Of a DNA stretch of 64,000 nucleotides, positions 28,998-49,442 are shown piece by piece (within the stretch, counting starts at the first letter, position 1; every line of letters begins with the position of its first letter). Both the position numbers and the translations under genes were made by a program. Source of the stretch: an uncultured Coriobacteriaceae bacterium (GTDB lineage Bacteria; Actinomycetota; Coriobacteriia; Coriobacteriales; Atopobiaceae); the NCBI GenBank assembly GCA_902790135.1, contig CADAQM010000032.1, positions 1 through 64,000 on the forward strand, written 5' to 3'. A model generated the notes under the pieces. It saw nothing but the letters and a program-made list of their open reading frames with translations, had not been told where the DNA came from and did not search any database.

Positions 28998-29558
28998 TTA
29001 CTTGCGCTTGAACGGGAAGTGGAAGGCGTCGAGCAATGCCTTGCCCTCCTCGTCGGTGGTAGCGGTGGTGACGATGGTGATGTCCATGCCACGGGTGCGG
29101 TCGATCTTGTCATAGTCGATCTCGGGGAAGATCAGCTGCTCGGTGACACCCATGGAGAAGTTGCCGTGACCGTCAAAGCTGGTGGCCTTGACACCGCGGA
29201 AGTCGCGGATGCGAGGGATTGCGGTGGCGATCAGGCGATCGAGGAACTCGTACATGCGGTCGCCGCGAAGGGTGACCTTGGCGCCGATGGCCATGCCCTG
29301 ACGAAGCTTGAAGGTAGCGATGGACTTGCGGGCATGGGTGACCAGGGGCTGCTGGCCGGTGATGGTGCGCAGGTCAGCGACAGCGCCGTCGATGGCCTTG
29401 GCGTCCTGAGCGGCCTCACCAACACCCATGTTGACGACGATCTTCTCGATCTTCGGGATCTGCATGACGTTCTTGTACTCGAACTTCTTCTGCATCTCGT
29501 CGCGGATGGTGGAGATGTAATACTCCTTGAGGCGCGGAACGTACTTCTCTTCTGCCAT
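28998..29558 (-). CDS. rplE: 50S ribosomal protein L5
   Basis: 186 aa, starting [14 protein letters not shown] with GGAG upstream. [31 protein letters not shown] and [13 protein letters not shown] are diagnostic. It binds 5S rRNA and P-site tRNA. In the standard order rplX lies immediately upstream; here that place is taken by a dehydrogenase and a giant adhesin, so this unit needs its own promoter within 29559-29804. No consensus pair stands out there. Confidence 0.96.
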
Positions 29559-29804
29559 AGTTACTCCTTTGGATCGTGGTGGTTTACGTGCGGGGTCTTT
29601 GCCTCGCACCACCTGGGTTGGCGGCCCAGGAGCCATTTCATGCGCTATAGGCAGAACTATCCCTACCTAAAGACGCAAGAATTAACTATATGCCTTTGGT
29701 CAACGAAATGCCAGTTTGGACGATAAGCACACAATTGCCATGACTTCCAGGGCGAAGCGCGTCGCTTGTACCCGTTCCACCTGTAGGGAGCGCATGCCCG
29801 ATGC

Positions 29805-30770
29805 CTATCTGTAGACCTCATTCACGAGCGGCTCGCCCGCCATGAAGGCCTCCAGGTTGTCCCTGCAGAGCGCAACCGTGCAGGCAGTCTGCTCGGGCAG
29901 GTGCCAGAAGCCCGAGATGTGCGGCGTGATCAGCGCGTTGGGCTCCGCCCAGAGCGCATGATCTGCCGGAAGCGGCTCAGGATTGGTGACGTCGAGCGCC
30001 GCTCCTGCCAGATGGCCCTCCCTGAGCGCCTTTGCCAACGCGTCACTGTCCACCAGGTCTCCCCTGCCGCCGTTCACAAAGTAGCTGTCCGCACGCATCG
30101 TGGCGAAGAAGCACTCGCCCGCAAGCCCTCGCGTCTCCGGCGTGCTCGGCAGTGCCGACGCAACCACGTCCATCTCGCCCAGCACGTCAAAGATCTGATC
30201 CATCGTAATCATCCGCTCGAAGGGAGCCCTCGCCTCGACGACGGTTCGGCGAGCGCCGGTCACGTGTGCCCCCATGGCTGCGCAGAGCTGCGCGAACCCG
30301 GAGCCAATGCTGCCCGCGCCAAGCACCAGCACGTTGGCATCCGCCAGGGTTCGCACGGTGCCCTCGTCACGCCAGAGGGCCTTGCTCTGGTTGTCGCGAT
30401 ACAGGTGGAGCTTCTTCATGAGACAGAGCAACTGGGCAAACATGTGCTCAGAGACCGCTTGGGCGTAGGTTCCCGCCGCGGAGCTGAGGCGCGTCTGCGG
30501 GGCAAGCAGCCCCTCCTTCAGATAGTGGTCGTAGCCCGCCGACGAGGTCTGAAGCCACAGCAGCCCCTCAGGCGCGCGGAGCTTGGCTGCTGGAACGTTG
30601 CCCACGATGAGCGTCGCATCGTCTATGTCATGCTCCTTGACGTTCGGCTCGCGTATGAAGGTCGCCTTGGCACCTGCGCCTTCGATGAGCTCGACAAACG
30701 CCTGCCGCTCCGTATCAGTGAGCGGAAGAGTGACCAGCACCTTCTTGCCCTCCAGATCGATGCCCGCCAT
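29805..30770 (-). CDS. D-2-hydroxyacid dehydrogenase family protein
   Basis: NAD(P)H-linked reduction of a 2-keto acid to a D-2-hydroxy acid. The 321-aa protein has the Rossmann motif GAGSIGSGFA (about 148-157), NGGRGDLVD, ALDVTNPEPLP and the catalytic TPHISG near the C-terminus. ATG 30770 follows GGGGAGG; the longer reading adds 60 unlikely residues. Substrate unknown (phosphoglycerate, lactate and ketopantoate-like relatives all share these motifs). It stands between the adhesin and rplE with its own promoter candidate, so it was probably placed here with or after the adhesin. Confidence 0.85.
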   Translation of the reverse strand: MAGIDLEGKKVLVTLPLTDTERQAFVELIEGAGAKATFIREPNVKEHDIDDATLIVGNVPAAKLRAPEGLLWLQTSSAGYDHYLKEGLLAPQTRLSSAAGTYAQAVSEHMFAQLLCLMKKLHLYRDNQSKALWRDEGTVRTLADANVLVLGAGSIGSGFAQLCAAMGAHVTGARRTVVEARAPFERMITMDQIFDVLGEMDVVASALPSTPETRGLAGECFFATMRADSYFVNGGRGDLVDSDALAKALREGHLAGAALDVTNPEPLPADHALWAEPNALITPHISGFWHLPEQTACTVALCRDNLEAFMAGEPLVNEVYR

Positions 30771-30901: not shown

Positions 30902-30933
30902 CTGCCCCCTCCAGCGGCAGCCAGAGGGGGCAG
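30902..30933 (-). terminator. Terminator of the adhesin gene
   Basis: CTGCCCCCTC (30902-30911) pairs with GAGGGGGCAG (30924-30933), loop 12 nt, 30 bp past the adhesin stop. A short T-containing tail (TGTCGTTTGG) follows in the transcript. Confidence 0.65.
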
Positions 30934-30962: not shown

Positions 30963-33900
30963 CTACCTCAGGACGTCAATGCGCCTGCGCAAGCCGCGCA
31001 GACCGAGGGCGACAAGGCACAAGCCGACCGTCGCCATCGAGTACACGAGTGCCAAGGTTGTGGGGTCGCCCGTCTTCGGAAGCACGGTGATGCTGTTCGT
31101 GATCACGAATCCGTCGGCAGCCCTACCGGACACCGTCGTGTTGTACTTCTCGGACACGCCGCTCACGTGGACCTCGGCCACCGTGTAGGTGATCTTGGCG
31201 CCGTCATCGGTTACCTTGGGTAGCTTGGCAAACGTGTGTGAAGGCGCACCTGCGGTCAGCGTGCACTCGTCCACCTTGGTTCCGTCAGCCATGAGGGCGA
31301 CCGTCACCTTGGCGCCAGACGGCCACGCCGCGACCTTACCGCGCCTCGTCCAGACCTTCTTGACGGAGATGGACGTCTCGTCGGGCTTATCGGAAGTGTA
31401 GGTGTTGGTGATGGTAAAGCCCTTTGCAGCGTTGCCGGTAGCCTTCGACGTAAAGCCGGCAATGCCCTTCTCCTCGACCGTGTAGGAGATCTCAGTGGTT
31501 CCGTTGGCCTTGTACTTGGGCAGGTTGGCAAACTCGCCAGACGGCGCATCGGCGCTCAGCTTCACGGTCTTGTGCGTATCGACACCGTCGGCCAGAAGCT
31601 TCACGGTGACGCTCTCGATGTCGGCCGGCCACGTGGTGGAGCCGTCGGCGTTCTTCCACGCCTTGGTGACGGGCACCTTCGTGGTCTCGTAGTTGTTGGT
31701 TATGGTGGCAATAACGGCCTGGTCGCCGGTCTTGCCTGCCTCGACGGCCACCTTTACCGGGTTATCACCACTGACACGCGTCGCGTTGTTGGGCGCGGTC
31801 TCCTTGACCCAGTAGTTGCCCACAGGCAGCTTCTCGATCTCTGCGCTCGTGACAGGCGCCCCGTCGTCGGCAACGGTAAGCGTGACAACGATGTTGTGAC
31901 CAGCGGCGTCCTTTGCAGGCTTCTTGCAAGCCGCATCGGTATAGACCTTGAATTCGTAGTCGCCGGCTAGGGCGGATTTGGCGGCGGACGAAGTGGGCTC
32001 GGCGCCGTTCTCCTGGACCACCTTCCGAATCTTCAGCGATCCGAGAATACGCTTGTTGGTGAAGACGTGAACTGCGGCCTCGGAAGTGATACTCGATTCG
32101 ATCTTTCCCATTGAGGGGTTGACGTCAAAGGCGGAATCGCTCGTCTCCTGCACCCTGTACTTCGTGCCCTCGGGTATGCCGGTTGCGGTCTTCCTCTGGT
32201 TGTGGCGCAGGGTAAACGTGCACTTCCCGTTTACGAAGGTCATGTCACCAAACGTCTTGTTGCAGCCCGTGTCGACGGAGCCGTCATCCTTCAGAAGCGA
32301 CACCGTGAAGGAGAAGTCTATGTTCTTGTCCGCACCGTAGGGGGAATCCACCTTCTTGAGAACGGTCAGACCACCGGACGGAGACTCGTAGTTGTTAGTG
32401 AACTCAACCGTCTTGATCTTGGCGGTAGCGCCCCCTTCGACGCCGACCTCGATGCCGTTGTTGCCAACCAGGCTCACGCCGCTCGGGTTCTCGGACGTGT
32501 CCTCGGATACGGTATAGGTGCCAGGGACGAGGCCGTTGATCGTCGCGGTGTTGGATTGGCCGCCATCGATGGTGATCGTGGGCTCTGCCACAACCTTGCC
32601 GTTCGAGTCCTTCACTGTGAACGAGTAGGTGCCATCTGCGAGCGCGCCGCTGGTTGAACTGCCATCCACCGTGACGTGCTTCTTGATCTCGAGGCTTCCG
32701 GTATCCAAGTTGTTGGTGAACTTGGCAATGACCGCATCCTCGCCGGTTTTGTCTGCCTCGACGGTAACTTTGACCTTTTGAGCAACGGGTGTGGAGCCGT
32801 TGGCGGGAGCCGTCTCCTTAATCCAGTAGTCACCGATGGGCAGGTCCGTGACCTCCTCACTCTCGGCAGGAGCACCAGTCTCGGGAACGGTGACCGTGAT
32901 GGTCTTGGGTGCCCCGTTGACCTGGTACGGCTTGGTGCAGGCCTCGTCAGTGTAGAGCGTGAAGCTGTAGTCTCCCTTGAGTATGGCCTTGGCCGTATCA
33001 GAAAGCTGCGTCGAGCCATTCTCGGTAACGGTCTTCTTGACCTTCAGGCTGCCGTACTTCTGTTGCTTCTTTGTGTTGGTGAAGACGATGACCTCGTCGT
33101 CCTGGGTCAGCTCACCGGTATGCGAGATCGCCTCCTCCGTCTTGTGCTGGGTGACGTTGCCGTCCTCATCAAAGACGTCGTAACCCACTTCGACCGTGAA
33201 CTTCTTGCCGTCGGCACTCGCCAGGACCTCCTCGACCTTGTACTTGGTCCCCTTGGGGAAGTCCCAGAACATCTTCTGCTCTTTGTCCTTGAGCTGGAAC
33301 TCGCACACGCCGTTCACGAACTCGTAGTCATCATTGCTCTCGTTAAAGTCGGTGTCGACGCTGCCGTCGTCCTTGAGGACGGAAATCTTGAAATCGTAGG
33401 ATCTCTCGAGGTCATCCTGGTCGTCACTCTCTACCCGCTTTTCGATGACGAGGCCCTCGAGTGGCCAGTTCTTTATCTGCATCACGTCGTTGTAGTAGTA
33501 GACGTACTCGCCGCCTTCGCCGTAGTTGACCTCATCCATCTTGTTGGTGAGCGTAACCGAGTAGTTGATGTCGACCGTGGCGTAGTTCTCGGGCGCTTCC
33601 ACCTCTTGGACGATATACTGCTGGCCGAAATAGAAGTCGTAAACGGCACCGTCAAACTCTATCTCACCGTTCTCGTCGGTCGTCAGGACGATTTCATTGG
33701 CATGGTTTGCCTTCTCCCCGAAGTCCAAGTCGGGGTTCTCGCAGAAGACCCTGAACGGCACCCCGCTGAGCTTCTTGTTGGCATCATAGCCGTCGACCTT
33801 GACGATCTTGAAGCTCACGATCGAGGCCTCGCCTCCGCTATCGCTGACGTACTCATTCTTGTTCTGGGAGACCTTGGTCCTGTCCTTGACACTGACCGTA

Positions 33901-36900
33901 TTGACGATCGTCTGCTCCCCGTTTCCTCTGACGTCGGCGTCATACGTGATGACCACCTTGGTCGAGTCGGGAACGGTAAAGGTTGCGACGGTCGTTCCGT
34001 CGGTCCGCCCATCTGGGCCGACGCCGCCCTTCAGGTTATACGGCACCGCCATGCCAGCTGGATCCGTCGTTATCTGAATGGAGCTGTAGTCAACGCTCAG
34101 GTTCTTGCTGAGGACGTCGGTCATGGTCATGGGCTCGCCCTCGTTGAGCGCAGCCTTGGCGGAGTTGAAGGTGATCCGATAATGAGCCTTGCGATTCTTC
34201 CCACCCAGTTCGCCCTCGTTCAGAAGCTCCTTGGTGAGGTACTCGTATTTGGTCTCGTAGTCGCAATCGTCCTCGTGACCACCCCACCTGACCGTGTTGA
34301 TGAGGTGATGCTCACCGCCATTGGCAATGGCCAGCTGGTTGAGGTCAACCCCGTCCTTGAGGCGGAGGTAGTAGCAGATTCGGTAATACGGATAGTAGCT
34401 TCCATCGGACTGCATCGGCACCGAGTTTGCCGTGAGGATGACGCCGTTGCTGGTCTCGGAATACGAGATGTCCGTCTTGCCGGCAACCTGGCTGTACTGG
34501 GTGCCGCCCCAGATCTTCATGTGGTCACCCCAAGAACCCACCTGCGAATCGTCGAGCTCGAGCAGGCTCGTATCGAAGGTATCCTCGATGCTTATGGGCG
34601 TATCGGAAACACCGGAGAGCAGGAGGGTATACAGGAAGGAGCCATCGGGCTGACGCTCGACGGCCTTTTCGATTCCCGGCTTGCCAAAGATGGCCGTTGC
34701 GGTATCAGTCGTACCGTTCAGCCCAATCGTGTTGGTGTGATTCTGTACGCGGCCGCCAGTCTTGTAGCCCTCCTGTAGCCAATCCTGATTCACCTTGGTG
34801 GTCAGCCTGACCGTAATGGTGTGGCCACCCGGTGTTCCCTGCAGGCCCGTCTGCTCCTGTTTGCTGTCCTTGTAGAAGGTGATGACTATCGACCCGGTGG
34901 TTTCTGTCGAGGGGTCCGGGGAAACGGTGTAGCTCTCGCCTGGCAGCAGGCCCGTGATCTCGAGCGAACCAGCCTTGTACGTGTCCCTATAGACCGTCGT
35001 GCCGTCATCCAGCCGAATAATCGGCAGCGTATCCGTGACGACCGCCTGAGCCAGTCCGTCTTCTGGAATCGACAGCGTGGTTACCCAGTTGATTTCCTCG
35101 GTCGTAAAGGACTCTACTTCCTTGATCACGCCGACCTTTTCCGTGGGTGTGACGTTCACGCCACCATAGCTCCCGTTGCCCTCATTGGAGAGGCTTACGG
35201 TTGCGCCTGCCTGTTTGACCTTATCCATGTCAACCACGGTCTGGTAGGTGATGTGATAGCTGTACGGAGTCGTATCAGTCTCCGGTATGGTGTACGTCCA
35301 GCTGGAGGCACTGTGACTCGTCAGCTCGTCGTAGCCAACGTTGCGAGCGTCGACCAGATGGCCGTCGTGGTCGTAGACCTCAACCTTGATGCCATCACCG
35401 TAGTACTTCATGTACTCGGTGGAGTTGGCGGCAATGGTGTCCTTTATCGTGTCGCCACCGACCGCCACGAGGGACAACATGTTGTAGTCGATCGTCCACT
35501 CGATGATCTTGTCACCGGTCTCCGTGGTGCCTGCTTCGGTACCGTCACTCTTGCGCGTGGACTTGTACGTAATCTCGCGAGAGTACTCGCTCTTGTGAGG
35601 GTCGCCCCCTTCAGGCTTAACTGTCACGGTGTTCTTGGTCTGATCGACGGTAAGCTTGCCGTCATTGTCGAAGTCCTTGCAGAAGTCGGCGTTGGCAGAG
35701 TAGCTGATGGTAATGACCTCGCCATCCGCCATGGAGGCAAAGGTGTAGTCAAAGCCATTGTTGCTGCCTTTATCCGTGTATCCGCTTGAGTTCCCACTGA
35801 CCTGCACGTCGTTATTGAAGATGAGCGCATTGCCAGAGATAGTGTCCTTGACGTTGACGTTGGTCAGGTCACCCATCGCGGTCACCGTGATGGTGTAGTA
35901 GAACCTGCCCGTGCGCTCGTCGAAGGTTGCCGTCTTCTCGGCAAAGGCCTGGGCAGGCTCCGGATCATCAAAGACGATATCGCGTTTGATCTCTTCGCTG
36001 AATTTGATGATCTCCTCCGAGCTCTCAAACTCGGCGCTAAAGCTGAATCGGAAGGTGACATTGGTGGACGACACGAGCTTTTGATAGTTGGGGTCACTCT
36101 CATCAAACTTGACCTTCAGGTTGCCGCTGGTGTCAAGCTCGTAGTGTGCTTTTACCTTATAGGTTCTGTTGCGGTACCCGACGTTGATCTCGGTGGTGTC
36201 GTTTATGGTTTCGGACACCGTGATACCCTCGGGGATTGTGTACGTGAGCTCTGCGTCGTTGTCAAACTGGCAGGCCGCGCCTTCGGCAAAGCTGAGGACG
36301 ATTCCGTAGTCCTTGCCCTCTTCGACGTGATAGCGACCCTGCTCGTCCTGTGTCGCACCGGTAATGACTGCATTGACAAGGAAGTCGGTCAGATTGCTAC
36401 TTTCGCGCACATCGGTGATCGTGATCACGTGCATGCTGTTGCCGGATTTGACCCTGAGCTCATAAGTGCTGGTAAAGGGAACGTCGGAGCTGATGTGCCA
36501 TACGCCATCGGGCTGCGTGAGGTACAGGTCGCCCTCGATGGTAGTGCCATCGACAAGCTCCAGCGTCGCGTCGTCGATCGCACCCTCGATACCAAGGGCG
36601 GCGAGCACGTCCGTAAGCGCATAGCTACCCTGGCCGGGGAAGCGATACGTATGGCCCTCGTACGTGAAGTCGACGGTGTAGCTGAACGAGAACACCGAGA
36701 AGCTGTCCGTAGCCACCGTAATGCTGTTACTACCGCTGGCGCTGGTGTCCAGAGGTTCAGCCTCGATAGCGCCATTGACCTCGGTCAGATGCGCAACTGC
36801 GACATCTTCCGCACGCTCAGCCGCGATATCCTGCGTCAGTTGCTGCTTCTTGAACTCAAACTTCACCTCTACAGAGCCTGCGGCCGGCTCGACCTCGACG

Positions 36901-37601
36901 GTCTTGCCGTCTTCGGTCATCACGAACGCCACATCGTAGAGTAGGGTGTTGCCCTCGTTGTAAGGGCTGTCGCTAACGGAATCGTTCAGCGCGGCCAAAT
37001 AGGCATCGTACTTGCTGTTCCCCCGGGCGACAGCCTTGACGCGCAGCTTCGCATCATCGGGCACGGCGGTCGGATCTTCCAACGTTGCCGTTACCTTGAT
37101 TGAGCCATCCGCATAGGTATAGGTGGTCTTGGTGGCTGCCTCCTCGTCGGATGGATCAGCGTCGGGCACCTTCTCGTCGGACGTCGGCGCGTTCTCCTCA
37201 TCTTGAGAGCCCGTGGCCTCAACAGGCTGCTCAGTCTCGGCCGGCGCCGCAGCCTCAGTCGGTTCCTCGTTCTCGGCGGGTTCCACGTTCTCGACGGGCT
37301 GCTCGTCCTCTGTGGGAGTTACCGCTGTAGCGGCTTCTCCAGCATCTACCGACACGGACTCGTCAGATGACTCCACATCCACAGCCTCATTGCGTATAGC
37401 ATCGAGATTCGAGGCAGTCCCCTCTTGAGTCTCCTGCTCGCCCGTGGCAACAATGGCCTCCCCGTCCTCATCTAGCGCGAACGCCAGATGAATGGGAGAT
37501 GATTGCATCACCATGCATAGGGTGAGTAGTAACGAAAGGAATGTGCTACCAGAGTTCTTCAGCGCCTTCTTCCGTGCATTGCTGAACCTCATACCGCTCA
37601 T
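30963..37601 (-). CDS. Giant LPKTG cell-wall-anchored adhesin with repeated Cna/SpaA-type domains
   Basis: About 2212 aa. A signal peptide (hydrophobic about 20-42, ending AFA) leads into a Glu/Ser/Thr-rich acidic stretch (about 45-165), then an adhesive region of repeated beta-rich modules (about 300-1260). A SpaA-like module lies near 1267. At least five related modules open with K-rich strands (VIEKRV ~1384, VKKTV ~1520, IKKHV ~1637, VLKKV ~1745, IRKVV ~1855), and two Cna_B repeats follow (VTKAW ~1975, VKKVW ~2074). Most end in FTNN/ITN, so Lys-Asn isopeptide cross-links with a central Glu are expected. LPKTG (~2173), a hydrophobic helix and an RRR tail mark it for sortase. No sortase gene is in the window. 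I start at the second ATG, after GGGGGA. It splits rplX from rplE. Confidence 0.88.
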   Translation of the reverse strand: MSGMRFSNARKKALKNSGSTFLSLLLTLCMVMQSSPIHLAFALDEDGEAIVATGEQETQEGTASNLDAIRNEAVDVESSDESVSVDAGEAATAVTPTEDEQPVENVEPAENEEPTEAAAPAETEQPVEATGSQDEENAPTSDEKVPDADPSDEEAATKTTYTYADGSIKVTATLEDPTAVPDDAKLRVKAVARGNSKYDAYLAALNDSVSDSPYNEGNTLLYDVAFVMTEDGKTVEVEPAAGSVEVKFEFKKQQLTQDIAAERAEDVAVAHLTEVNGAIEAEPLDTSASGSNSITVATDSFSVFSFSYTVDFTYEGHTYRFPGQGSYALTDVLAALGIEGAIDDATLELVDGTTIEGDLYLTQPDGVWHISSDVPFTSTYELRVKSGNSMHVITITDVRESSNLTDFLVNAVITGATQDEQGRYHVEEGKDYGIVLSFAEGAACQFDNDAELTYTIPEGITVSETINDTTEINVGYRNRTYKVKAHYELDTSGNLKVKFDESDPNYQKLVSSTNVTFRFSFSAEFESSEEIIKFSEEIKRDIVFDDPEPAQAFAEKTATFDERTGRFYYTITVTAMGDLTNVNVKDTISGNALIFNNDVQVSGNSSGYTDKGSNNGFDYTFASMADGEVITISYSANADFCKDFDNDGKLTVDQTKNTVTVKPEGGDPHKSEYSREITYKSTRKSDGTEAGTTETGDKIIEWTIDYNMLSLVAVGGDTIKDTIAANSTEYMKYYGDGIKVEVYDHDGHLVDARNVGYDELTSHSASSWTYTIPETDTTPYSYHITYQTVVDMDKVKQAGATVSLSNEGNGSYGGVNVTPTEKVGVIKEVESFTTEEINWVTTLSIPEDGLAQAVVTDTLPIIRLDDGTTVYRDTYKAGSLEITGLLPGESYTVSPDPSTETTGSIVITFYKDSKQEQTGLQGTPGGHTITVRLTTKVNQDWLQEGYKTGGRVQNHTNTIGLNGTTDTATAIFGKPGIEKAVERQPDGSFLYTLLLSGVSDTPISIEDTFDTSLLELDDSQVGSWGDHMKIWGGTQYSQVAGKTDISYSETSNGVILTANSVPMQSDGSYYPYYRICYYLRLKDGVDLNQLAIANGGEHHLINTVRWGGHEDDCDYETKYEYLTKELLNEGELGGKNRKAHYRITFNSAKAALNEGEPMTMTDVLSKNLSVDYSSIQITTDPAGMAVPYNLKGGVGPDGRTDGTTVATFTVPDSTKVVITYDADVRGNGEQTIVNTVSVKDRTKVSQNKNEYVSDSGGEASIVSFKIVKVDGYDANKKLSGVPFRVFCENPDLDFGEKANHANEIVLTTDENGEIEFDGAVYDFYFGQQYIVQEVEAPENYATVDINYSVTLTNKMDEVNYGEGGEYVYYYNDVMQIKNWPLEGLVIEKRVESDDQDDLERSYDFKISVLKDDGSVDTDFNESNDDYEFVNGVCEFQLKDKEQKMFWDFPKGTKYKVEEVLASADGKKFTVEVGYDVFDEDGNVTQHKTEEAISHTGELTQDDEVIVFTNTKKQQKYGSLKVKKTVTENGSTQLSDTAKAILKGDYSFTLYTDEACTKPYQVNGAPKTITVTVPETGAPAESEEVTDLPIGDYWIKETAPANGSTPVAQKVKVTVEADKTGEDAVIAKFTNNLDTGSLEIKKHVTVDGSSTSGALADGTYSFTVKDSNGKVVAEPTITIDGGQSNTATINGLVPGTYTVSEDTSENPSGVSLVGNNGIEVGVEGGATAKIKTVEFTNNYESPSGGLTVLKKVDSPYGADKNIDFSFTVSLLKDDGSVDTGCNKTFGDMTFVNGKCTFTLRHNQRKTATGIPEGTKYRVQETSDSAFDVNPSMGKIESSITSEAAVHVFTNKRILGSLKIRKVVQENGAEPTSSAAKSALAGDYEFKVYTDAACKKPAKDAAGHNIVVTLTVADDGAPVTSAEIEKLPVGNYWVKETAPNNATRVSGDNPVKVAVEAGKTGDQAVIATITNNYETTKVPVTKAWKNADGSTTWPADIESVTVKLLADGVDTHKTVKLSADAPSGEFANLPKYKANGTTEISYTVEEKGIAGFTSKATGNAAKGFTITNTYTSDKPDETSISVKKVWTRRGKVAAWPSGAKVTVALMADGTKVDECTLTAGAPSHTFAKLPKVTDDGAKITYTVAEVHVSGVSEKYNTTVSGRAADGFVITNSITVLPKTGDPTTLALVYSMATVGLCLVALGLRGLRRRIDVLR

Positions 37602-37879
37602 GTCTTCCCCCATATCCATGGGCGCGAATAGCCCTATACGTTTTTAGCTCGTTCTATCTGCGTTTAGTCTGAGTGCCCTTGTTGCCCAGGCGTACGCAAG
37701 GCAGTACATCTGGACATATATGTTGTCATCGTAACCCATATATATAGCCTATGCATACATATGTGTTCTATAAGCAGCAATAGTGCCCCTTTTGGGCTTG
37801 TTTTCGCAGGTGAGTGGCCACCTAAACGCCCGCATCGAGCTAGGAAAACCCTCGAGTCACTAAGGATGTGGACAAAAAA
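37602..37879. other. AT-rich region upstream of the adhesin
   Basis: About 280 bp, clearly richer in A+T than its surroundings, with runs such as CATATATATAG and several overlapping TATA-like hexamers. It must hold the adhesin promoter and possibly control sites. No single -35/-10 pair is convincing and no ORF is supported. Confidence 0.5.
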
Positions 37880-37909
37880 GGACCCCCGAGTCCTGCGACT
37901 CGGGGGTCC
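37880..37909 (-). terminator. Strong intrinsic terminator after rplX
   Basis: A perfect 13-bp stem GGACCCCCGAGTC/GACTCGGGGGTCC (37880-37892, 37897-37909) with a 4-nt loop, followed in the transcript by six U residues. It lies 24 bp past the rplX stop and ends the rplC-to-rplX unit before the adhesin region. Confidence 0.92.
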
Positions 37910-37932
37910 TCACACCTTCTATGGGTGCAGAT

Positions 37933-38250
37933 TTAGAACTCGGCACCGCACTTCTTGCAGATGCGGACCTTCTTGCCTTCGGCGTTCTTGCCGTGACCCA
38001 CGCGGGTCGGCTTGCCGCAGGCCGGGCAGACGAGCATCACGTTGGAGACGTCGATGGCCGCCTCCTGCTCGATGATGCCACCCTGCTGGTTGGTCGGGGT
38101 CGGACGCTGGGCCTTCTTGACGATGGCAACGCCCTCGACAATGACCTTGCCCTCGGCGGGCTTGGCAACCAGGACCTCGCCCTGCTTGCCCTTGTCCTTG
38201 CCAGAGAGGACCTGGACCTTGTCGCCCTTCTTCACGTTCATCTTAGGCAT
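37933..38250 (-). CDS. rplX: 50S ribosomal protein L24
   Basis: 105 aa with the KOW motif near the start ([20 protein letters not shown]) and two CxxC pairs (CPACGK, CKKCGA) in the C-terminal part. It is an assembly initiator on 23S rRNA. ATG 38250 follows AAGGAGG at about 10 nt. It is the last gene of its unit here; rplE should follow but lies 8.7 kb away. Confidence 0.95.
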
Positions 38251-38265
38251 TCGTCTCACGCCTCC

Positions 38266-43339: not shown

Positions 43340-43550
43340 ACACCCTTGCGCCTTCCCCAGCGGACCGCATCCGACGTATGGCTGCGTCCTTGTCTTTTTG
43401 TACGGCCACGACCGCGAGCAGGTGCCCCTACACAGGTTGGGGCATGCAGCCGAGACAGAACAATCCCACAATTCAGCAGCTTTTCTATCTTAGCGGAGGC
43501 TTTTGGGGATACGCCCGGTTGTGGGGTTTCCACAATCTCTCCACCCGATG
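43340..43550. other. Intergenic region between the VanZ-like gene and rplC
   Basis: About 210 bp that should hold the promoter and leader of the rplC-rplX unit. A short TTGTGG/CCACAA stem at 43519-43535 may end the VanZ transcript. TAAGAT lies on the reverse strand as a possible -10, without a clear -35. No ORF is supported. Confidence 0.4.
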
Positions 43551-46654: not shown

Positions 46655-46963
46655 TTAGAGCTTGATCTCGATGTCCACGCCGGCGGGCAGGTCGAGGCGC
46701 ATCAGGCTGTCGACCGTGCTGGAGCTCGGGTCGAGGATGTCGATGAGGCGCTTGTGGGTGCGCATCTCGAACTCCTCGCGGCTGTCCTTGTCCTTGTGCG
46801 GCGAGCGGATGACCGTGTAGAGGTTGCGCTCGGTGGGCAGGGGGATGGGGCCGGAAACGCGAGCACCGGTGTTCTGGGCGGTCTCGACGATCTTCTTGGC
46901 CGACTGGTCAACGACCTCGTGATCGTAGCCCTTGAGGCGGATCCTGATCTTCTGGCTTGACAC
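46655..46963 (-). CDS. rpsJ: 30S ribosomal protein S10
   Basis: 102 aa, starting at GTG 46963 (S-S-Q-K-I-R-I-R-L) with GGAGGT 6-7 nt upstream; the ATG five codons earlier overlaps that site. [19 protein letters not shown] and [10 protein letters not shown] are diagnostic. Also the NusE antitermination factor. Normally rplC follows directly; here a terminator and a polysaccharide cassette do. Confidence 0.96.
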
Positions 46964-47007
46964 TTTGGTTACCTCCATTAAGAGCGAAAGGCTCGTTGAC
47001 TAGTGAC

Positions 47008-48990
<1,983 letters not shown>

Positions 48991-49008
48991 TTACTCCTGG
49001 ATTCAGGT

Positions 49009-49442
49009 TTAGAAGCGGTAGTGCGCGAAGGCGCGGTTGGACTCGGCCATCTTGAAGAGGTCCTCACGACGCTTGACGGAAGCGCCAACGCCGTTGGAGG
49101 CGTCGAGGATCTCGTTGGCCAGGCGCTCGGCCATGGTCTTCTCCTTGCGAGCACGCGAGAAGTTGACCATCCAACGGATGGCGAGCTGGTTGGCACGACG
49201 GGAGTTGACCTCCATGGGCACCTGGTAGGTGGGCGGATGTTGTCCATGGCCTTCTTGAAGACGGAGAGGGCATCCTCGCCAGACTTGGCGGCGACCATGT
49301 CAAAGGCGCCATAGACGATCTTCTCAGCGGTGGCCTTCTTGCCATCGAGGAGGACCTTGTTGATGAGCTGGGTCACGAGACGGTTGTTGTACTTGACGTC
49401 CGGCATGACCTCACGACGGACTGCTGCTGCACGACGCGGCAT
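49009..49442 (-). pseudogene. rpsG: 30S ribosomal protein S7, internal loss and frameshift (probable assembly loss)
   Basis: The N-terminal half reads [20 protein letters not shown] to [10 protein letters not shown]. At about 49230 the sequence jumps to [20 protein letters not shown], in another frame, and continues normally to AHYRF. The segment between (about 12 residues, normally containing EVK.RRVGGA) is missing. 434 nt is 37 short of a 156-residue S7 gene. S7 organises the 30S head and cannot be lost, so I treat this as a sequence artefact. Confidence 0.9.

Follow-up and report, generated by a model that had tools for sequence, protein, structure and literature searches.

The S10-spc cluster of ribosomal-protein genes is among the most conserved bacterial gene orders (PMC8046335; here and below, papers are cited for those parts of their text that were available to us). 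In E. coli, ribosomal protein S8 binds the start of rplE and represses the spc operon, and the regulation of spc outside E. coli is stated as unknown (PMC10931766). We examined a 64,000-nucleotide (nt) stretch of contig CADAQM010000032.1 (hereafter the window) from an uncultured gut bacterium of the Coriobacteriaceae (GCA_902790135.1), in which the gene for a large LPXTG adhesin lies between rplX (L24) and rplE (L5), within the S10-spc cluster. An earlier note on this DNA dealt with the protein and overlooked its location, which is the more unusual fact. We place at roughly 0.68 the probability that the adhesin gene occupies a cargo-exchange site between two self-contained transcription units, the second headed by a leader-equipped rplE.

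A gene-order study of Gammaproteobacteria and Bacilli reports, in its available part, that insertions loosen the ribosomal cluster there too; 75 of its 115 rearrangements break joins between operons and keep the operons intact, whereas here the break falls inside spc and has been refilled repeatedly. The break in this lineage coincides with the site of the E. coli operator, and the leader RNA described below resembles the S8 operator of E. coli spc (PMC10931766) in its place, the initiation region of rplE, the third spc cistron. It also resembles described ribosomal leader RNAs (PMC7247131) in its covarying structure and its constant position ahead of a ribosomal gene, which are the features that paper goes by. 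None of the 20 new leaders in the available part of that paper precedes rplE, and its sole entry for Coriobacteria is L31; the 35 earlier leaders lie outside this comparison. The protein resembles LPXTG fibrillar adhesins and MSCRAMM-like proteins (Cna, PrgB, AgI/II, TIE; PMC9210967) in its putative N-terminal adhesive region, repetitive immunoglobulin (Ig)-like stalk, sorting signal and folds, and differs from them in that its gene sits within a ribosomal cluster and that no adhesive domain is found among the Pfam matches listed for it. Its stalk modules are like Cna_B/SpaA isopeptide modules (1d2o; 2xi9, 4bug; 3kpt) in sequence and fold matches and in their Lys/Glu/Asn pattern. Unlike these references, the adhesin mixes several module families, and its bonds are predicted from the residue pattern. 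The novel part of the locus is its location and the leader RNA, the protein being of a known type; the leader gives a direct test of an open question, and comparing relatives with open and closed joints would be a simple way to test what keeps operons together.

Cargo at the rplX-rplE joint

On the strand of the adhesin gene, rplX, rplN, rpsQ and the remaining S10 side lie upstream, and rplE, rpsH, rplF and secY lie downstream of a D-2-hydroxyacid dehydrogenase gene (some ribosomal gene names were assigned by eye from translations). The features of the joint are as follows.

37933..38259 (-): rplX (L24), last gene before the insert; TIGR01079, 127 bits (cut-off 53.7)
37878..37911 (-): intrinsic-terminator-like hairpin just after rplX, a 15-bp stem then a T-run; own scan
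30963..37619 (-): LPXTG adhesin gene, 2218 aa; open reading frame (ORF) and Pfam
30902..30933 (-): terminator-like hairpin just after the adhesin stop; site scan
29805..30770 (-): D-2-hydroxyacid dehydrogenase gene, also at the joint in relatives; PF02826, 160 bits
29685..29714 (-): promoter-like site of rplE, CTGGCA-18-TATAGT; site scan, similar sites in 15 of 49 loci of the window's family
29571..29643 (-): rplE leader RNA, two covarying helices; covariation, and a match to leader model R1 (E 1.7e-25; the window was among its training sequences)
28998..29558 (-): rplE (L5), first gene after the insert; NF000585, 301 bits (cut-off 186)

The joint was surveyed in 140 genomes of the window's family (f1) and in 109 genomes drawn across the class, 90 of them outside f1 (57 from other orders, 15 from family f2 and 18 from family f3), with the gap measured from the end of the L24 hidden Markov model match to the start of the L5 match. 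Of the 140 f1 genomes, 126 gave an L24 match and 124 an L5 match; the two were on one contig and strand in 102 genomes and on different contigs in 19 more. Among these 102 genomes the gap was longer than 1 kb in 45, longer than 2 kb in 37 and longer than 5 kb in 19, with a maximum of 32 kb. The joint was closed in all 57 genomes of other orders (92-237 nt) and in all 15 f2 genomes (182-394 nt), and each of the 18 f3 genomes had it either open (7, by 4.7-61 kb) or with rplX and rplE on different contigs (11). None of nine other joints of the cluster was in any locus 1 kb longer than its own median, with 39-50 loci compared for each joint and 41 for L24|L5.

Cargo was read in 36 f1 gaps, namely that of G077 and 35 of the 45 that are longer than 1 kb; the other ten open gaps (G057, G070, G115, G118, G133-G137 and G139) stood outside this reading. 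ORFs of at least 1000 aa were observed in 14 of the 36 gaps, in 8 genera, with a total of 16 such ORFs, all on the ribosomal strand. Nine of the 15 large ORFs other than that of the window were scanned, and all nine matched SpaA, Cna_B, FctA, DUF7601 or List_Bact repeat models. Grouping the large ORFs by shared coverage gave separate clusters. A class C sortase was observed within the gaps of G007, G079 and G091. Because the S10-spc order is so highly conserved, repeated uptake of surface proteins at one joint, in part together with class C sortases, was unexpected. Further cargo included the dehydrogenase (5 of the 57 cargo ORFs, the G005 copy being recognised by translation), a sulfatase, zinc-ribbon proteins, ABC transporters and Fic proteins. 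The f3 gaps held other genes, and no LPXTG-type protein was seen in them by eye.

Within the window's genus alone, the joint held the adhesin and dehydrogenase (G000), the dehydrogenase and a sulfatase (G010), two other ORFs and the dehydrogenase (G005, read from two contigs sharing end sequence), pilus-type genes with a class C sortase (G007), or a zinc-ribbon protein (G001). In G006 a 1295-aa ORF after rplX runs off its contig, and a 2950-aa homologue lies just before rplE on another contig. The sister of the window's genome on the ribosomal tree, G010, is without the adhesin and has the order rplX, hairpin, dehydrogenase (83% identical), opposite-strand sulfatase, leader and rplE, and most 150-nt windows of its near flanks are 98-100% identical to those of the window. 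The difference between dehydrogenase and flanks is only suggestive of exchange. The joint is a hotspot in the plain sense that close relatives hold different cargo at one core interval, and a ribosomal tree of 58 genomes needs no fewer than 11 changes to explain where large surface proteins are present and where they are absent.

The survey could also reflect an old split with drift, in which a single break in a common ancestor of f1 and f3 was followed by genes drifting in and by re-closure in several lineages; the joint would then not be especially receptive, and surface proteins would be there by chance. All 18 f3 genomes being open or split, with other cargo, fits this account, as do the related large surface proteins (coverage clusters A and C) found at the joint repeatedly in separate genera, the distribution expected of an old island with losses, and insertions are described as relaxing selection for synteny (PMC8046335). 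We consider it rather unlikely, given the content that varies among the five genomes of one genus above and the 11 or more changes on the tree. A mobile element integrating site-specifically beside the rplX hairpin or the leader would account for cargo that is always at the same joint and for insert boundaries that fall between rplX and the leader. The window insert consists of two genes, neither an integrase, no direct repeats flank it, and no integrase or transposase is among the 25 Pfam families listed for the 57 cargo ORFs (48 further families lie beyond that list), which makes such an element very improbable.

We judge it equally improbable that metagenome misassembly placed the adhesin at the joint. 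Sequence present in G010 is missing from the contig at seven places within ribosomal genes or next to them (29-82 nt each), and so are 28 nt close to where the comparison ends, as might happen in a faulty assembly. A homologue lies directly upstream of rplE in a contig of a public metagenome-assembled genome (MAG; L005, with the same layout as G006:C223), G005, G010 and G012 show the same order of dehydrogenase, leader and rplE, and large inserts are also seen where an assembly consists of one or a few contigs (G053, G062, G069 and G076), all of which argue against it.

Other cargo was observed in passing. Pilus-type genes with a class C sortase lie inside the ribosomal cluster at L021, L048 and L055. 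Several f3 gaps (L080-L090) share an 830-950-aa ORF ending in SGCLFVGVD or similar, and some have an aminotransferase-like ORF (named by eye). The gap of G083 (L052, L053) contains a 7929-aa ORF on the ribosomal strand, and the sulfatase genes at the joint are on opposite strands in G010 and G015 (L022, L024).

A leader RNA before rplE and a proposed separation into two units

The leader was aligned from 42 f1 sequences (alignment A1, from which loci with long inserts or uncertain rplE starts were excluded by eye) and forms two helices of 11 pairs, with 96.3% of cells paired. Double changes were observed in 8 of the 11 pairs, the covariation score was 0.342 compared with 0.181 in shuffled alignments (none of 500 shuffles was as good), and sliding the helix partners abolished the signal. 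A model built from 28 sequences (R1) gave 119 strong matches in the 140 f1 genomes, every one directly upstream of rplE, covering 116 of the 124 genomes with rplE; nine weak matches (E 0.001-0.01) were located elsewhere. A second model (R2), trained on 20 sequences from f2 and from other orders, gave 46 matches in 109 genomes, again all upstream of rplE, and five of these were f1 genomes in which R1 finds the same place. The leader-hairpin pattern was present in 49 of 49 f1 loci, including those behind long inserts. The leader is previously uncatalogued, with no match in Rfam and no description found in the open-access literature. A third helix (GGTGG with CCACC), proposed by eye on A1, was dropped, as it does not hold in other genera. 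One genome, G061 (L037), carries two rplE copies within about 1 kb, each with its own leader and both recovered by R1.

The position of the adhesin gene, the lineage pattern of the joint, its variable cargo and the conservation and covariation of the leader were all read from sequence, and we propose the following mechanism for them. The ribosomal cluster of this lineage would be split between rplX and rplE into two self-contained units that are probably transcribed separately. The upstream unit would close at the terminator-like hairpin after rplX, and the downstream unit would open with the promoter-like site and the structured leader, a candidate autogenous regulator. Since rplE retains a promoter-like site and a leader of its own, the insert appears to lie between two self-contained units, and DNA could be gained, lost or swapped there without breaking ribosomal regulation. 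Such tolerance of insertion may be what makes the joint a hotspot, with cargo presumably exchanged mainly through recombination in the conserved flanks. The regional totals of terminator-like and promoter-like sites were not above those of shuffled sequence, so it is the positions of these sites, not their number, that carry the argument. For a broader proposal we would give even odds, namely that rplE and the remainder of spc are controlled across Coriobacteriia by a ribosomal leader of a new class, which, by making rplE autonomous, turned a gene joint that ranks among the most conserved in bacteria into a harbour for the exchange of giant adhesin genes and pilus genes beside highly expressed ribosomal genes.

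The orientation of the cargo raises another purpose, read-through from the ribosomal promoters, which would tie the adhesin level to growth rate. It agrees with the strand of the large ORFs, all 16 in the 36 gaps and the one of L005 being on the ribosomal strand. The terminator-like hairpins after rplX and after the adhesin speak against it, and the region upstream of the adhesin shows a marginal similarity to that of L005 (local score 57 against a maximum of 50 among shuffles) that hints at a promoter of its own; we regard this purpose as decidedly unlikely.

Several observations weigh against a cargo-exchange site between two separate units. The hairpin after rplX was found by our scan in only 28 of 50 f1 loci, 7 of 8 f3 loci, 7 of 15 f2 loci (5 of these being the leader hairpin itself) and 0 of 5 loci of other orders, and the promoter pattern before rplE in only 15 of 49 f1 and 6 of 8 f3 loci; insulation is therefore not shown everywhere. 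Eight of the 124 f1 genomes with rplE are without an R1 match, and the leader-hairpin pattern missed one of 8 f3 loci (L082). Both models partly recover their own training sequences, with non-training genomes making up 88 of the 116 matched by R1 and 26 of the 46 matched by R2. An old island with repeated loss would yield a similar pattern of presence and absence, the dehydrogenase at 83% could simply evolve faster than the ribosomal genes, and the search for direct repeats flanking the insert, as a trace of its mode of insertion, found none. The stretches of 28-82 nt absent from the contig relative to G010 are probably assembly deletions.

The probable adhesin and the sortases of its genome

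The adhesin ORF is open throughout positions 30963-37619 (-). The end at 37601 given previously corresponds to a downstream in-frame Met (MSGMRF), and the ORF end is used here. Its parts are as follows.

33840..37142 (-): N-terminal region, residues 160-1260, all-beta, Ig-like and probably adhesive; low-confidence model, Foldseek and fold comparison
31074..33836 (-): eight modules of Cna_B/SpaA/DUF7601/DUF5979 type with the Lys/Glu/Asn pattern, residues 1262-2182; Pfam, structure matches and pattern scan
31068..31082 (-): LPKTG sorting motif, residues 2180-2184; sequence

The N-terminus is basic and then hydrophobic, as judged by eye, and the C-terminus has LPKTGD followed by a hydrophobic stretch and an Arg-rich tail (LPKTGD...LRGLRRRIDVLR); the Pfam anchor model PF00746 does not match the adhesin, though it matches three other genes of the same genome. 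We read the protein as an ordinary sortase-anchored fibrillar adhesin, probably with an all-beta N-terminal adhesive region carried on an eight-module stalk whose modules probably hold Lys-Asn isopeptide bonds.

The earlier note had claimed a large adhesin built from serial isopeptide-type modules, at least seven of them with a Lys, a Glu and a terminal Asn, and a large LPXTG surface protein with such modules is supported. Pfam stretches of Cna_B (2), SpaA (3), DUF7601 (2) and DUF5979 (2) were observed, the best of each family after residue 1268. A pattern with a first-strand Lys, a Glu in a Y/K-x-V/I-x-E strand and an Asn in a terminal F/I/L-T-N found eight non-overlapping modules (about residues 1262-2182), which form a repetitive Ig-like stalk, compared with a mean of 0.001 and a maximum of 1 in 1000 shuffles of residues 1201-2218. 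The Lys of module 8 was caught by the whole-module pattern and missed by a narrower Lys pattern. Residues 1751-1848 match ancillary protein 1 (2xi9, 4bug) and residues 1979-2176 the Cna B region (1d2o), both solved proteins of isopeptide type, at E of about 2.6e-5 to 2.8e-5. Structure prediction of the C-terminal modules, which had been proposed as a check, gave a model with a mean predicted local distance difference test score (pLDDT) of 64, and about 80 in its mid-region, that favours modules of pilin, Cna and TIE type; its top Foldseek matches included T-antigen, TIE, PitA, Cna B and Cpa structures, and 3kpt was also matched. The modules are likely self-crosslinked Lys-Asn isopeptide domains, with the triad assessed from the sequence pattern alone. 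Old duplication of the modules, also suggested before, is likely, but the several Pfam families and the closest homologue, whose N-terminal region is 74% identical and whose C-terminal modules are different, make module swapping likely as well.

Residues 160-1260 were predicted as all-beta with low confidence (mean pLDDT 53.5), and this model was dropped as a basis for defining the adhesive domain. Its Foldseek matches were to PrgB Ig-like domains, AgI/II C-terminal domains and Cna/MSCRAMM folds, and one N-terminal module aligned with the pilin 4hss_B (Z 10.0, root-mean-square deviation 2.7, 114 aligned residues). An alignment search of the N-terminal region among 60 relatives gave 6 matches, only three of which cover most of its length; all six come from the window's genus. 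Relatives of the region at 62% and 55% identity were observed in MAGs titled Clostridiales and Clostridia (L006, L007). Because these are closer than the same-genus copy in G005 (43%), transfer between phyla is suggested, if the MAG labels are right. No relative was found on viral contigs, and no similar DNA on plasmids.

No sortase gene is near the adhesin, as had been noted, the four sortase matches of the genome being on contigs C14 (two), C1 and C12 and the window on C32. The proposed dependence on a housekeeping sortase is unsupported, since by NCBIfam these are three class C and one class B enzymes, in a genome only 96.6% complete. No class D or E sortase was above the NCBIfam cut-off, and no class A model is among those listed.

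The stretches missing from the contig relative to G010 measure 57, 71, 29, 36, 40, 53 and 82 nt, in or at the edges of ribosomal genes, with a further 28 nt near the end of the sequence that was compared; they fall at window positions 43340, 40753, 39563, 39311, 39041, 38634, 27191 and 23865. Given that these are probable assembly deletions, in-frame losses within the adhesin are conceivable. An 844-aa ORF at 46908-49442 (-), which joins part of S7 to part of EF-G, is probably the product of such a deletion.

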